This document shows, one piece after another, positions 1 to 47,267 of a DNA stretch of 63,593 nucleotides (position 1 is the stretch's first letter; each line of letters opens with the position of its first letter). A program made the position numbers and the translations under genes. The DNA lies in the IMG/VR virus record IMGVR_UViG_3300017917_001411, positions 1 through 63,593 of that record, one strand, 5' to 3'. Under the pieces are notes generated by a model. It did not search any database. It saw nothing but the letters and a program-made list of their open reading frames with translations, and was not told where the DNA came from. The DNA is from a virus.

Positions 1-1266
1 ATCGTATTGTGTGTAAAATTGTTTGAAATCATTTAATAGCTTAGGCCGTTCAAACGCTTCACTGTGCGGAGTTTTTACTATGTCCAAATAATCAATTAAT
101 CGTTGTAAATGATTATATTCATGTTCGTGATATAATTTTGAACTTTGAATTCCTGCTAGGAAGTTGACCAATTGATTACGATAATATGTACGCAAATCAT
201 CGCTTAATACTAAAGGACTTTGGAAACTGGGGAACCGTAAAATATTTAGTGTAAAGCTCACACGTTCACGCCCGTAGAGCACTTTAAGATGCTCCAATGA
301 CTTTAACAGATCGGGTAGACTATCCAAGCACAGTGCGTTAATTGTACACATACAATGTAGCGCACGAATATCATCTGAGTCTAATATTTGTTGTACGTTA
401 CGCAACCATAAGTTATAATCTAACCCATCGCGGATATATTCTGCTTGGGCACGAGTGCTTTCCATGCTAGTGTATATGTCTACTTCTAATCCTTCTATAC
501 TAGCGAGCAAACGCTCAACGTCCACTTGCGGGCCTAAGTTTGAGTTAATAGCTAGTCTTGTCGTGGATTTCCCTTTGTTCTCTCGGAACCAATCCAAGAG
601 CCTCCAGGTTTCCCCCGACATAAGCGGCTCGCCACCTGTAATGCGGAGTTCTTGAAGCGTTTTATGTAAGTCTGATTCCCACCACTTGAAGAAAGCTCGG
701 GCGTACGGATTCTCTTCACCATAGCGGTATAGTTGAGCACTTCCATGCGAATGAGTGAAATGGTTACGGCCATCACTAACAAGAGCAGTGTAAGGGCCAT
801 TGCGATCGATATCTTTGACCCAGGTGCTTGAAAAGGCAGGGTTACAATAAGAACAAGCGAACTGACAAGTGCGATCGAAAGCGATTTCGAGTGTACGTAA
901 GTCCACATCTTGATCAACAGGTGTGTTATATGCTTCATTTAAGGCCTCTATAGGATAAATTTTACTCTTATACACACGGTCGCTAACGGCATCAACGCCC
1001 ATGTCTTCTATCTTCCAACAGTATTCACAACCAGCGGGGCGGTCGCCCTTTAACATTAACTCACGGTCATGTTTCTTTTGCGCTGTGTTGTGTAATAGTT
1101 TAGGATTCTTTTGTACTTCGTTTATATCTACTAAATGTGCCGGCGGGTGATGGCAACTGGTGGTCATACCTGAACCCAACCATATGGTAGCGTTGTACCA
1201 TTTGGCCGCACAAAAACTAGCTGACTTTGCGTCAAGTATTTGACGTTTAAATTCTAAATCATTCAT
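1..1266 (-). CDS. Radical SAM protein (copy A), C-terminus beyond window
   Basis: Open reading frame of 422 codons that runs off the left edge, so the C-terminus is missing. The radical SAM cluster motif CX3CX2C is seen as TCQFACSYCNP near residue 140, followed by the GGEP motif (RITGGEPLM) that contacts SAM. Upstream are further Cys motifs (SFCAAKW, TSCHHPP, GCEYCW) in the pattern of twitch-type radical SAM proteins, where extra cysteines bind an auxiliary cluster. It is a paralogue of the gene at 2367-3782, sharing the Cys layout, HHPP/YHPP and LHNT motifs. The ATG at 1266 overlaps the stop of the preceding gene by 8 bases, implying translational coupling. Expected role: radical chemistry on a peptide or sugar-linked substrate; the substrate is unknown. 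Confident for the fold, not for the reaction. Confidence 0.85.
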   Translation of the reverse strand, partial: MNDLEFKRQILDAKSASFCAAKWYNATIWLGSGMTTSCHHPPAHLVDINEVQKNPKLLHNTAQKKHDRELMLKGDRPAGCEYCWKIEDMGVDAVSDRVYKSKIYPIEALNEAYNTPVDQDVDLRTLEIAFDRTCQFACSYCNPAFSSTWVKDIDRNGPYTALVSDGRNHFTHSHGSAQLYRYGEENPYARAFFKWWESDLHKTLQELRITGGEPLMSGETWRLLDWFRENKGKSTTRLAINSNLGPQVDVERLLASIEGLEVDIYTSMESTRAQAEYIRDGLDYNLWLRNVQQILDSDDIRALHCMCTINALCLDSLPDLLKSLEHLKVLYGRERVSFTLNILRFPSFQSPLVLSDDLRTYYRNQLVNFLAGIQSSKLYHEHEYNHLQRLIDYLDIVKTPHSEAFERPKLLNDFKQFYTQYD

Positions 1267-42266: not shown

Positions 42267-42658
42267 GGCGTTTAAAAAGATGGCGTCGTAATCGTGCTAA
42301 TATGAACACACGCATACTCAAAACTCAGGATGCATGTAATATATCAATTCGTCATATCCTATATTGGCGTAAATCACATAAAAAAGGCATGGGTGTGGCA
42401 CCAATATATAAAACAAGATCCAAAGAATCTATCACACGAGTAACTGTTCGAGTTTCAAAATTGTTAAGAAATAAAAAACATCATATACCAAAATATAAAG
42501 TTGATCGGGCTGGTCTAGATTTTTTTTCAATAACCAGTCCAAAAGCACCGAACATGCGTTGGACAATGGCTAGACGTGAGTATCGAAATAACAAGAGAGA
42601 AGTAATTAAAAAATTTCCTGATTATGTAGATGTAGCATTGTTTGATAGGTGGTGGTAA
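42263..42658 (+). CDS. Basic protein of unknown function
   Basis: 131 residues, strongly basic (RRLKRWRRNRANMNTR at the start; many Lys and Arg throughout), which suggests nucleic-acid binding. No domain recognised. The GTG start overlaps the gp46 stop as GTGA; an ATG at 42302 is possible. Ends with FDRWW. Its place after gp46 suggests, but does not show, a link to DNA processing. Confidence 0.5.
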   Translation: MRRLKRWRRNRANMNTRILKTQDACNISIRHILYWRKSHKKGMGVAPIYKTRSKESITRVTVRVSKLLRNKKHHIPKYKVDRAGLDFFSITSPKAPNMRWTMARREYRNNKREVIKKFPDYVDVALFDRWW

Positions 42659-42707
42659 TCGCCTGAAATTCTGTGGTATTGCAACATCTTTGATAACTAA
42701 TAGTCCA

Positions 42708-43133
42708 ATGTGGCTGTTTGAATCAAAGGAAATTACAGAATTACCAGAAGATTGCGTTGGTTTCGTTTACTTGATAACAAATAAACTAACCGGCAGAAAG
42801 TACATTGGGAAAAAATTAGCAAAATTTAGTAAGACAACATACAAGACAGTAAAACTAAAAAACGGCAACAAAAAACGTAAAAAAATCAAAAGTAAAATTG
42901 ACTCAGATTGGCAGCTATACTACGGTTCAAGTCCAGAATTATCTAAGGATGTAGAACTGCTAGGACCAGAAAACTTCACTAGAGAAATACTTTATTATTG
43001 CAAAAGCAAGTCTGAATGTAGTTACATTGAGGCCCGAGAACAATTCGCAAGACGAGTATTAGAGTCAGATGACTACTATAACGGACATATACAAGTCCGC
43101 GTCCATGGTAGTCACATTAAAAACAAACTGTAA
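42708..43133 (+). CDS. GIY-YIG nuclease-like protein (T4-like conserved type)
   Basis: 141 residues from ATG 42708; an in-frame TTG at 42642 would overlap the upstream gene and is disfavoured. GFVYLITNKLTGRKYIGKK is a clear GIY-YIG core (VYL and YIG) and the later REILYYCKSKSECSYIEAR provides the expected Arg and Glu positions. A Lys-rich loop (KNGNKKRKKIKSK) separates the two. This type occurs near recombination genes in T4-like aquatic phages as I recall. Homing activity or a repair-type nuclease are both possible. Confidence 0.72.
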   Translation: MWLFESKEITELPEDCVGFVYLITNKLTGRKYIGKKLAKFSKTTYKTVKLKNGNKKRKKIKSKIDSDWQLYYGSSPELSKDVELLGPENFTREILYYCKSKSECSYIEAREQFARRVLESDDYYNGHIQVRVHGSHIKNKL

Positions 43134-43577: not shown

Positions 43578-43766
43578 TCAGAAGAATGGTAAGTTTGTTT
43601 TCTTGGTAGTATCTAAATTCTCTTTGACAATGTCAGAGATAATTGCACGTTCACCTTGACTCATTTGCATGGCCTCTTCATAGGTTATGCCACCACGCAT
43701 GTACCAGCAAAGTTTGAGTACTTCTTGTTTGATGCTTTTAACCTCCTTATCCATAGCATCAACCAT
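43578..43766 (-). CDS. Small ORF after gp26 (gp51 position), likely frameshift partner
   Basis: 62 residues: KSIKQEVLKLCWYMRGGITY then EEAMQMSQGERAIISDIV and a basic tail. In T4 the gene after 26 is 51, an assembly factor for the hub, so position suggests a gp51-like role. There is no Shine-Dalgarno before the ATG; instead a small CGGG-ATTT-CCCG hairpin overlaps it. The frame is open upstream through the end of gp26 in the -1 register, so it is probably expressed mainly as the C-terminal part of a gp26 fusion. Sequence similarity to gp51 was not established by eye. Confidence 0.65.
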   Translation of the reverse strand: MVDAMDKEVKSIKQEVLKLCWYMRGGITYEEAMQMSQGERAIISDIVKENLDTTKKTNLPFF

Positions 43767-44635
43767 GCGGGAAATCCCGTCAGAGTCCAGGACTAGGAGG
43801 CGGTTTCGAAAAAATTTGACATGTCCAACGTAAAGTCTTGTTGGAATTCGTTATTGCAATCTTGACATTTCATACCAATGGGTTTGATGTCACTTGCACG
43901 TCGTAACTCAATCGCTCGATCTTTAATGGCTTCGAACGTTGATTTAGGACAGTTGTTTAAAAACTCAAGAATGTGATTAGAATCGGTTACCATGGCATCG
44001 GCTGTTTTAATTGCTCCCACAGCACTGCTAATATTACGTATGGTCATGGCAGTAATGCGTTTAAATGCTTCGCCAAGTTGACGCATTTTTTCTTCTTCGG
44101 GTATTTCGCTATTGGGTAAAATCTGCATGAGTTTTTGATCTTCAAACTGAATCTTGCTGTTTTCGTTTAGTTGTTTATATGTCACTGGTGTAAAGTAAAT
44201 GGTTAAATCACCAATGGCTAAAGGTTGTTCGTAATCGGGTGTTTTGATGCTGTCGAGAACCATGCGCAAGTCAATTTCAAAATCATGTTCGCTTCCGCAT
44301 TTTGGACATTTAGTAGAAATAGTCATGTCGTGTCCGTAACTGGCAATTCTAGTGGCCACTAGTAATGCGTTGATATCAGTGCTAGGCACAGCCCATGGGT
44401 CTGTAATATTAGGCACACAACTGCGGATAATTTCCACCACAGCACTGCCGTTAAACAGCGCATCCGGTGTGCGACTAGAAATTTCATCAACCGCGGTCAT
44501 GGGTAAAATTGGTAATTCACCATTGGGCGGCAGGTTAATTGTGCCCGGTGGATACTGTTTACCACCACTGGGTAACCGTACATAAATTGCCGGTTGTCTA
44601 AAATGTTTTCTTAATGGGTTTTGTAAATCGGCCAT
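43578..44635 (-). CDS. Predicted gp26 fusion product by -1 frameshift
   Basis: Predicted 352-residue protein: gp26 residues 1-276, linker of 14 residues read in the -1 frame, then the 62-residue ORF. The layout (a main product and a rarer longer product by slippage near the end of the first gene, next to the tape measure gene) copies the tail-assembly chaperone pairs of lambda (G and GT) and of other tailed phages, which bind the tape measure during tail building. Here the tape measure is the adjacent divergent gene. The frames and slippery site are seen; the fusion itself is inference. Confidence 0.5.
43793..44635 (-). CDS. 26: Baseplate hub/assembly protein gp26-like
   Basis: 280 residues. 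KHFRQPAIYVRLPSGGKQYP at the start and LPILPMTAVDEISSRTPDAL are typical of gp26 of T4-like aquatic phages. Two CxxC units, CPKCGSEHDF near residue 108 and CQDCNNEFQQDF near residue 256, probably form a zinc site. T4 gp26 is needed for hub assembly. GAGG serves as Shine-Dalgarno. The gene ends with a slippery run that may send ribosomes into the next ORF. Divergent from the tape measure gene across a 45-base gap with late-promoter boxes on both strands. Confidence 0.85.
   Translation of the reverse strand: MADLQNPLRKHFRQPAIYVRLPSGGKQYPPGTINLPPNGELPILPMTAVDEISSRTPDALFNGSAVVEIIRSCVPNITDPWAVPSTDINALLVATRIASYGHDMTISTKCPKCGSEHDFEIDLRMVLDSIKTPDYEQPLAIGDLTIYFTPVTYKQLNENSKIQFEDQKLMQILPNSEIPEEEKMRQLGEAFKRITAMTIRNISSAVGAIKTADAMVTDSNHILEFLNNCPKSTFEAIKDRAIELRRASDIKPIGMKCQDCNNEFQQDFTLDMSNFFETAS
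43808..43817 (-). promoter_or_regulatory. Probable -1 ribosomal frameshift site in gp26
   Basis: On the minus strand the gp26 codons TCA AAT TTT TTC GAA contain T TTT TTC (43814-43808) and A AAT TTT (43817-43811), both in the X XXY YYZ phase. Slippage joins gp26 residue 276 to 14 linker residues (RNRLLVLDSDGISR) and then the 62-residue ORF, without a stop. Confidence 0.6.
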
Positions 44636-44680: not shown

Positions 44681-46711
44681 ATGGCTGACGGAATTGACTC
44701 CCAAGAACTACAAGCACAAATGGACGCCTTGCGTCAGGCGATGCAAGGGCTGACCGCAGCCACCGACGACGATACCAAATCTAAAATGACCGCCAAAAAG
44801 GCAACAGCCGATTCGGTTAAAGCCATTGGTAGTTTTGCCAAAACTGTAGGCGAAGGCAATACAGAATTTAAATCATTTAACAAGATTATCGACACAGCCA
44901 CTGATGTTATGGCTGGGTTTGCTAAAGCTGTACCATTTTTAGGCGAAGGACTAGCCGCTAGTGTTAAAGCAGTTGGCGAAGCAAGTAAGTTTGTTGTTAA
45001 TCAACTTGATGCAACGTACAAAGCATTTGAAGATCTTGGCGAAGTAGGCGGACTAACTGCCAAGGGCATGACTGGACTCAACGAGCAGTTCTTACGCTCG
45101 GGTATGAGTTTGCAAGGGTTCCAGAAGACTGTTGTACAAAATGCACAAGCTCTAGCTAGATTTGCTGGATCAACCGGTGAAGGTGCAGAACAGTTTAGTA
45201 AAATTGTAGGATCAATTGCCACTACCGATGCAGGCGACCAACTACGTCGTTTGGGTATTGGCGCAGATAAAATTGGTGAAACTGTAGCCGGTTTTGTCAC
45301 ACGTGAAACACGACTAGGTCGCGCTCAACAAATGACACAAGACCAGTTGATTGCTGGCAGTGTACGTTATGCTAAAGAATTAGACGAGTTAAGCAAGCTC
45401 ACTGGTCAAAACAAAGACGCACTACAAAAGCAACAGGATGCCGCTTTAAGTGAAGCTCGTTTCCGTGCTCAAACTGAAAAGATGATTGAGCAAGGATTAG
45501 ATCCTACTGAATTAATCAACTTTCAAACAGCCGTAGCAAGTATCGCTCCGGGTATTGCTCAAGGTATTAGAGATTTATCTACAGGTGCAGCCACAACTGA
45601 TGCTGCTAAACAGTTAATAGTATCCACTGGTGGTGCCGCAACTGGTATTCTAGATCGATTAAAGCAAGGTGCTATTACTAGAGAACAAGCCGAAGTTGAA
45701 TTACAAGATGCATTAAAACGCAACAAGAAGTCCATGGTTGACCATGCGCAGGCAATTGGTAATGATAGTCAAGTGTTTACAGACTTGTCACAGTCAATTG
45801 ATTACATGAATGCCAAACGTGACAAAGAAGGCAAGTTAATTAAATCTACCCAGGATGCTCAAATAGCCGGTCAAGATGAATTAACTAACAAAACCGTTGA
45901 CGCTAAAAAACAATTAGAGTTAATGAATCGTAACATGTCCAATTTGGGTTTCCGTCTGTTACCAGCGGCGGCAACTGCGGTAGGTGCATTCACTGAAGCT
46001 CTCAACGAAGCAGTGGGTGTAATGTCCGAAAAATTGGGTATTAGCCTACCTGGCGTTGGTGGTACAAGTAAACAAAGAGGTGAGCGCAGACGAGCTGCCG
46101 CCGCAGGTCCTAAAGGGCAGGCATTACCAGAAGCAGGAACAGCAACTGAAGCTGATTACAAAGGACTGCGATTAAAAGGCGCAGAAGCCACAGCTGGCGG
46201 AACATCAGATCAACGATTAGTGGATTTAGCCTGGTTGATCCAAGACGCATTTGGTGCAGATATCAAATACTTCTCGGCATTTAACGACAAGTATCATATG
46301 GATAAAGACAGTGCTCACAACCGTGGTCGAGCACTTGACTTTGTTCTAAATGATCCAACAATGGCCGCATCTTTGGCTGATAGTGTTCGAGCACTTCCGG
46401 GTGTTAAGTATGTTAAAGATGAATACAATGACCCTAGTCCAAATTCAACTGGCGGACATATCCACGCAGAAATTTTGGCACGTAATGGATACAGCGGAAC
46501 ATTAAGTGGCCCAACAAGCGGATATCGTCCTAATTTGGTCATGCATGGTACTGAAACACTAACAGTACAACCTACTACAGGTGCCGCAGGTTCGGCTGCT
46601 ACAGCTGACACCAGCATACTTTCGGCACAATTGGACAAGCTCGAGGAGCTAGTTGGTGTTATGAAAACACAAGTATCAATAAGCAATAAGTTATTGTCAT
46701 ACCAAGGCTAG
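44681..46711 (+). CDS. Tape measure protein with M15-like peptidase domain
   Basis: 676 residues. Long helical, Ala/Gln/Lys-rich N-terminal two thirds (KAIGSFAKTVGEGNTEF, hydrophobic AVPFLGEGLAASV near residue 90, AGFVTRETRLGRAQQMTQDQ) fit a tail tape measure. Residues about 515-605 carry DSAHNRGRALDF (S-x-H-x-x-G-x-A-x-D) and GGHIHAEI (H-x-H), the zinc-binding pattern of M15/D-Ala-D-Ala-type peptidases, so the protein may cut peptidoglycan during DNA entry. A short C-terminal helix (LDKLEELVGVMKTQVSISNK) follows. Next to the gp26 frameshift pair, as tape measures are next to their chaperones in other phages. T4 gp29 is the functional equivalent; direct similarity was not established. Confidence 0.78.
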   Translation: MADGIDSQELQAQMDALRQAMQGLTAATDDDTKSKMTAKKATADSVKAIGSFAKTVGEGNTEFKSFNKIIDTATDVMAGFAKAVPFLGEGLAASVKAVGEASKFVVNQLDATYKAFEDLGEVGGLTAKGMTGLNEQFLRSGMSLQGFQKTVVQNAQALARFAGSTGEGAEQFSKIVGSIATTDAGDQLRRLGIGADKIGETVAGFVTRETRLGRAQQMTQDQLIAGSVRYAKELDELSKLTGQNKDALQKQQDAALSEARFRAQTEKMIEQGLDPTELINFQTAVASIAPGIAQGIRDLSTGAATTDAAKQLIVSTGGAATGILDRLKQGAITREQAEVELQDALKRNKKSMVDHAQAIGNDSQVFTDLSQSIDYMNAKRDKEGKLIKSTQDAQIAGQDELTNKTVDAKKQLELMNRNMSNLGFRLLPAAATAVGAFTEALNEAVGVMSEKLGISLPGVGGTSKQRGERRRAAAAGPKGQALPEAGTATEADYKGLRLKGAEATAGGTSDQRLVDLAWLIQDAFGADIKYFSAFNDKYHMDKDSAHNRGRALDFVLNDPTMAASLADSVRALPGVKYVKDEYNDPSPNSTGGHIHAEILARNGYSGTLSGPTSGYRPNLVMHGTETLTVQPTTGAAGSAATADTSILSAQLDKLEELVGVMKTQVSISNKLLSYQG

Positions 46712-46727: not shown

Positions 46728-47267
46728 ATGTCTTTCTATGTTTATCAATACATCAATGAGTTCGGTAATCCTTATTACATTGGAAAAGGTTCTGGACGAC
46801 GTATGCATGTAGAACATAAACATACCAAATTACCAGAAATTAACCGACGTATTATAGTTAAAGACGGACTTACAAATGATGAAGCTAAATCATTAGAAAA
46901 ACAGCTAATACAACAATATGGTAGAAAAGTTGATGGAGGGATTTTAGATAATATTAAAATCAATCAATGGGCATGCTATACTGGTTGGAAACATTCCGAT
47001 GAGACAAAACAAAAAATAAGCCTGGGTAATAAAGGAAAAAAAAGAACCCCCGAACAGCGTAAAAATTACAAAGGCACAACAACAACAAAAGAACATGCTG
47101 AAAAAGTAAGACAGGCAAATTTAGGTCGTGCCGATGATGGTAGATATGTTAAAATTGGATTAACAAAAAGTAAACAACGTTGGTACACCGACGGAAAAAA
47201 AACTATTATGGTAAATCCTGGTGATCAACCAGAAGGATTTCACCCAGGAAGAAAATTAAATGGCTGA
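46728..47267 (+). CDS. GIY-YIG homing endonuclease with NUMOD3-like repeats
   Basis: 179 residues. YVYQYINEFGNPYYIGKGSG is a GIY-YIG core with RRMHVEH following, and EAKSLEKQLIQQYG supplies the catalytic Glu. HSDETKQKISLGNKGKKRTP and KEHAEKVRQANLGR are NUMOD3-type DNA-binding repeats, and KQRWYTDGKKTIMVNPGDQP with EGFHPGRKLNG is the tail typical of these phage nucleases. It sits freestanding between the tape measure and portal genes and overlaps the portal start by eight bases. A mobile gene, probably targeting the allele without it near gp20. Confidence 0.88.
   Translation: MSFYVYQYINEFGNPYYIGKGSGRRMHVEHKHTKLPEINRRIIVKDGLTNDEAKSLEKQLIQQYGRKVDGGILDNIKINQWACYTGWKHSDETKQKISLGNKGKKRTPEQRKNYKGTTTTKEHAEKVRQANLGRADDGRYVKIGLTKSKQRWYTDGKKTIMVNPGDQPEGFHPGRKLNG

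Follow-up and report, generated by a model that had tools for sequence, protein, structure and literature searches.

A slippery heptamer at the end of gp26 points to a tail-assembly-chaperone pair made by programmed −1 frameshifting in relatives of phage T4

A review describes frameshifting in tail genes as a widely conserved feature of long-tailed phages, "except T4" (PMC5009743). In the lambda pair gpG/gpGT, a C-terminal domain is read from the −1 frame; coating of the tape measure protein is the task of the short form, and recruitment of tube subunits that of the long form (PMC5009743). The chaperone locus of the Vandenendeviridae and Andersonviridae carries a conserved −1 frameshift at a poly-T motif, proposed on the same kind of alignment evidence as that presented here, but the motif is GTTTTT instead of T TTT TTC and the phage families are different (PMC12846349). 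Here, we analyzed a viral DNA stretch of 63,593 nucleotides (IMG/VR record IMGVR_UViG_3300017917_001411, positions 1 to 63,593; in the following, the window), in which the gp26 gene ends with a slippery heptamer and very probably gives rise to a short and a long tail assembly chaperone by programmed −1 frameshifting. For T4-like phages, gp26 and gp51 are reportedly described as tail assembly chaperones in the title of Vladimirov et al. (2022, Virology 566:9-15). PMC10885494 likewise dates this report to 2022 and states that the two are separate genes in T4. Tail-chaperone frameshifting in general and the chaperone role of T4 gp26/gp51 are thus already known; in this respect the initial annotation, which did not take such a pair to be established for T4-like phages, is superseded. 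A 2025 paper cites Vladimirov 2022 for poly-T signals in "T4-like phages", so that some of the heptamer distribution reported below has possibly been published. The published papers on Atu_ph07 and CBB make no mention of a frameshift.

The central features of the locus are the following:
43793..44635, minus strand: gp26, short tail-assembly-chaperone-like protein of 280 amino acids (PF12322 T4_baseplate, phrog_150)
43814..43808, minus strand: slippery heptamer T TTT TTC in −1 register
43578..43808, minus strand: −1 frame, 76-codon C-terminal extension of the predicted long form, including a 62-residue open reading frame (ORF) at 43766-43578

The product of gp26 belongs to PF12322, the family of T4 gp26 and gp51 (E=3e-18; 66.8 bits compared to a gathering cut-off of 24.5), and matches phrog_150 ("baseplate hub") with E=7e-18. 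Its AlphaFold model has a predicted local distance difference test score (pLDDT) of 84.8 and finds T4-like baseplate hub assembly proteins in BFVD. The nearest named relatives are encoded by the jumbo phages Phosso (Sinorhizobium), Atu_ph07 (Agrobacterium), BF (Serratia), 121Q, and MIJ3, at 27-35% identity; IMG/VR holds closer relatives at 43-66% identity and a large sister group.

The last codons of gp26 are TCA AAT TTT TTC GAA ACC GCC TCC TAG (stop at 43795-43793, minus strand), in which both T TTT TTC and A AAT TTT stand in slippery phase, as had been read from the sequence initially. The heptamer begins 19 nt before the stop. Among the 48 ORFs of the window that start with ATG and have at least 100 amino acids, only gp26 contains an in-register T6C within its last 25 codons. 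We then compared the window with 94 relatives that could be read, the most distant with 27% gp26 identity (together 95 jumbo-type loci). The initial annotation had proposed such an alignment as a check, and its expectation was borne out: the last in-register heptamer is TTTTTTC, followed by an open −1 frame, in 95/95 loci, and no homologue in this set lacks the heptamer or has a −1 stop before the end of the ORF. The distance from the heptamer start to the gp26 stop is 10, 16, 19 or 40 nt across these loci while the heptamer itself is constant, which argues for selection on the heptamer and not on the stop. Synonymous variation is also suppressed at TTT TTC. Across a thinned set of 40 sequences, AAT, TTT, and TTC (gp26 codons 274-276) are identical in 100% of same-residue pairs compared to 51-61% expected, and sequence windows over them show the strongest codon constraint in gp26; since the thinned sequences share ancestry, this constraint has no simple p-value. 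TTC makes up only 26% of Phe codons overall. The leading A of A AAT TTT is not kept, as relatives carry AGT, CAT or TAT before the T run; T TTT TTC is the site under constraint. The slippery signal is real and far beyond chance, and its conservation across relatives removes doubt.

Downstream of the heptamer, the first −1 codon after slippage would be CGA (43808-43806), and the frame has no stop for 76 codons, as far as 43581; its stop codon is at 43580-43578. As annotated initially, the frame runs through 14 codons into the 62-residue ORF, whose first ATG (43766) is the 15th codon of the −1 ORF. Across 49 aligned sequences there is no stop in the −1 frame, compared to an average of about 7 per sequence in the other two frames. 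For the whole −1 ORF, the ratio of nonsynonymous to synonymous polymorphism (pN/pS) is 0.30; for codons 7-14, located between the gp26 stop and the ATG of the window, it is 0.39. Within the window and its five nearest distinct relatives alone, these codons were too few for an analysis of third-position bias. Mean column identity is 63% for the −1 ORF and 59% for gp26. These alignments argue that the −1 ORF is translated as protein and that purifying selection acts on it already before its first ATG. The extension is modelled as a three-helix structure (pLDDT 89.7), and it has no family in Pfam, PHROGs or NCBIfam.

In the comparison with T4, gp51 consists of a PF12322 protein plus an extra C-terminal segment. 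A profile of the −1 ORF from cyanophage-type loci matches the C-terminus of T4 gp51 (hhalign 96.8%, E=3e-10) and is clearly homologous to the gp51 C-terminal extension. The jumbo-type and cyanophage-type −1 ORF profiles match each other with E=3e-4 over 33 columns, whereas a direct comparison of the window-type extension with T4 gp51 gives a weak match (8% probability, E=0.004). Because the cyanophage-type link holds while the direct T4 match is weak, the extension of the window is probably, though not certainly, the same domain. The initial annotation had called the locus a gp26/gp51 pair; its reading as a chaperone pair is supported, but the downstream ORF is not a whole gp51 and probably corresponds to the C-terminal extension. 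T4 and the window resemble each other in their PF12322 gp26 and probably in this extension, and differ in that T4 makes its short and long forms from two separate paralogous genes without a heptamer. Compared to lambda gpG/gpGT, with which the window shares a C-terminal domain encoded in the −1 frame, the heptamer is T TTT TTC, the family is PF12322, and the candidate tape measure neighbour is divergent.

The signal extends well beyond the jumbo phages. We found TTTTTTC in 66/66 distinct cyanophage-type loci and also in P-SSM5, phiAS5, LG08, S13, phi-Grn1, Desulfovibrio phage 7757, and S-N03; scanning with the Desulfovibrio phage protein as seed returned no relatives. Rhizobium phages RL38J1 and RHph_I1_9 carry TTTTTTG, vB_VmeM-32 and Melnitz-3 carry TTTTTTT, and most of the other T4-like lineages that we sampled have at least T6. 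The heptamer is missing from all four T4-type phages that we examined (T4, Acj9, AS-gz, and Skers), each of which encodes two PF12322 proteins, while each heptamer-bearing phage checked has one PF12322 gene above the cut-off. The same holds for the complete jumbo records, unlike T4 with its two; the window itself is a fragment. The single-copy phages Cygsa01, VP-1, phiA8-29, and D531 break this pattern, as they have a −1 ORF of the same kind but no canonical heptamer. Of these loci (L106, L108, L109, and L111, respectively), all but phiA8-29 have a TAATG overlap; phiA8-29 lacks both overlap and heptamer. VP-1 carries GTT TTT, which resembles the GTTTTT motif reported for Vandenendeviridae.

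Taken together, we consider it very probable, on the basis of these alignments, that gp26 encodes a short/long chaperone pair by programmed −1 frameshifting. Most ribosomes would terminate at the gp26 stop codon and release the short chaperone of 280 amino acids. A minority would slip one base back on T TTT TTC and bypass the stop, producing a long form that consists of gp26 through its Phe-Phe followed by a helical extension of 76 residues. By analogy to lambda gpG/gpGT and T4 gp26/gp51, the short form may coat the tape measure protein, and the rare long form may recruit tail tube subunits.

Several results weigh against this interpretation. Besides the weak direct match to gp51, no solved tail assembly chaperone was matched by sequence or fold (both models against the PDB gave nothing usable), RNAalifold over 49 sequences detected no shared pair that would indicate a conserved stimulatory RNA structure, and an ATG overlaps the gp26 stop in many relatives. 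The missing chaperone match fits an alternative in which the extension exists but belongs to a structural subunit of the baseplate hub, not to a chaperone; "baseplate hub" is also the name that databases give to the family. We regard this alternative as unlikely: the 2022 paper title identifies T4 gp26/gp51 as tail assembly chaperones, for which a short/long pattern is typical.

The overlapping start codons bear on a second and still less likely alternative, namely that no fusion is made and the downstream ORF forms a small gene in its own right, with translation starting from its own ATG or by coupled re-initiation at an ATGA/TAATG overlap. The start in question is:
43764..43766, minus strand: first ATG in the −1 ORF, possible weak independent start (Shine-Dalgarno duplex −4.1 kcal/mol)

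The overlap occurs for example in L007, L010, L011, and 121Q, −1 is the usual frame for such stop/start overlaps, and public records annotate a separate ORF. In the window, however, there is no start at the gp26 stop; the first ATG lies 14 codons into the −1 ORF, and its Shine-Dalgarno duplex falls short of the 5% background cut of −5.8 kcal/mol. The initial annotation had denied this ATG a Shine-Dalgarno sequence and placed it in a small hairpin; there is a weak match, and the ATG does follow a small hairpin. It is not kept in L004, L005, L006, and others. Moreover, in 22/95 loci the first 22 codons of the −1 ORF contain no ATG, GTG or TTG, and Pseudomonas phage MIJ3 has no start codon anywhere in this ORF, so that in many relatives the second ORF is not a free-standing gene. 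Re-initiation also leaves the invariant TTT TTC codons and the selection before the ATG unexplained. The absence of start codons, combined with the conservation and constraint of the −1 frame, therefore favours slippage from gp26 over independent initiation. We rejected an independent gene for the 62-residue ORF, given its weak Shine-Dalgarno sequence, its non-conserved starts, and their absence from MIJ3. Public records such as PRTG_00100, phiAS5_ORF0325, and PP939_gp269 list the small ORF that follows gp26 as a gene of its own, named "baseplate hub assembly catalyst" (gp51); such small "gp51" ORFs are probably misannotated frameshift extensions. Finally, slippage of RNA polymerase on the T run, yielding a mixed mRNA population that encodes the fusion, is highly improbable: the site is a T homopolymer with longer runs in Melnitz-3 and vB_VmeM-32, but six T are short for bacterial polymerase slippage, and the exact TTTTTTC in a single codon register in all jumbo-type and cyanophage-type loci is what tandem tRNA slippage requires.

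With regard to RNA structure, the window has a strong predicted fold near the heptamer:
43741..43801, minus strand: predicted RNA fold just downstream of the heptamer, in which GCCUCCU pairs with AGGAGGU around the inner hairpin CGGGAUUUCCCG

Its energy is −27.1 kcal/mol (z −2.5). The fold is absent from the nearest relatives, and a stimulatory role is therefore not supported. In part of the sister group (loci L018-L094), a possible stem AGGAUCUU/GAGAUCCU lies about 5 nt after the heptamer, a spacing as in known stimulators. It forms at least 7/8 pairs in 24/42 sister-lineage sequences, its value of 0.824 is barely higher than the 0.801 in shuffles, and it overlaps the conserved RIL/EIL codons.

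The gene next to gp26 was initially annotated as the tape measure gene:
44681..46711, plus strand: divergent neighbour, candidate tape measure protein of 676 amino acids

The divergent neighbour is present, and its identity as a tape measure protein is weakly supported. Its product matches phrog_14121 "virion structural protein" (E=3e-8), and the member of this family from Serratia phage BF in turn matches tape-measure PHROGs (about 3e-6), a similarity that coiled coils may account for. The protein named as tape measure in Atu_ph07 is gp701, which does not adjoin gp686. The C-terminus of the candidate shows a His/Asp pattern, SAHNRGRALD ... GGHIHAE, with a sub-threshold Pfam match to HH_signal (E=0.034), and this segment may be a peptidoglycan peptidase-like domain. 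Two GIY-YIG-type homing endonuclease genes, at 42642-43133 and 46728-47267 (both plus strand), flank the block of gp26 and the candidate tape measure gene; one is SegE-like (PF19835, E=5e-33), and the other has a NUMOD3 motif. Elsewhere in the window, an ORF at 552-938 (minus strand) ends with an in-register GGGAAAT, and its −1 frame continues beyond the stop for 184 open codons; it may be a chance or wrong-strand ORF.

Overall, our results suggest that the exception made for T4 is a local one: among the T4 relatives examined, the majority retain a signal with almost no variation, and those of the T4 type have two genes instead. That the heptamer is conserved across the superfamily, and that it and the two-gene arrangement exclude each other, may be unreported. 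The finding also corrects a recurrent misannotation, since the small ORF that follows gp26, labelled "gp51 / baseplate hub assembly catalyst" or "hypothetical", would usually be the tail end of a fusion protein. We see an even chance that −1 frameshifting at T TTT TTC is ancestral for the chaperones of the wider T4 superfamily and that the T4-type lineages swapped in a gene duplication (26, 51). If this is true, it would account for the status of T4 as the textbook exception to the conservation of tail frameshifting. The contrast between heptamer and two genes would then provide a clean natural experiment, in which a recoding event was replaced by gene duplication.
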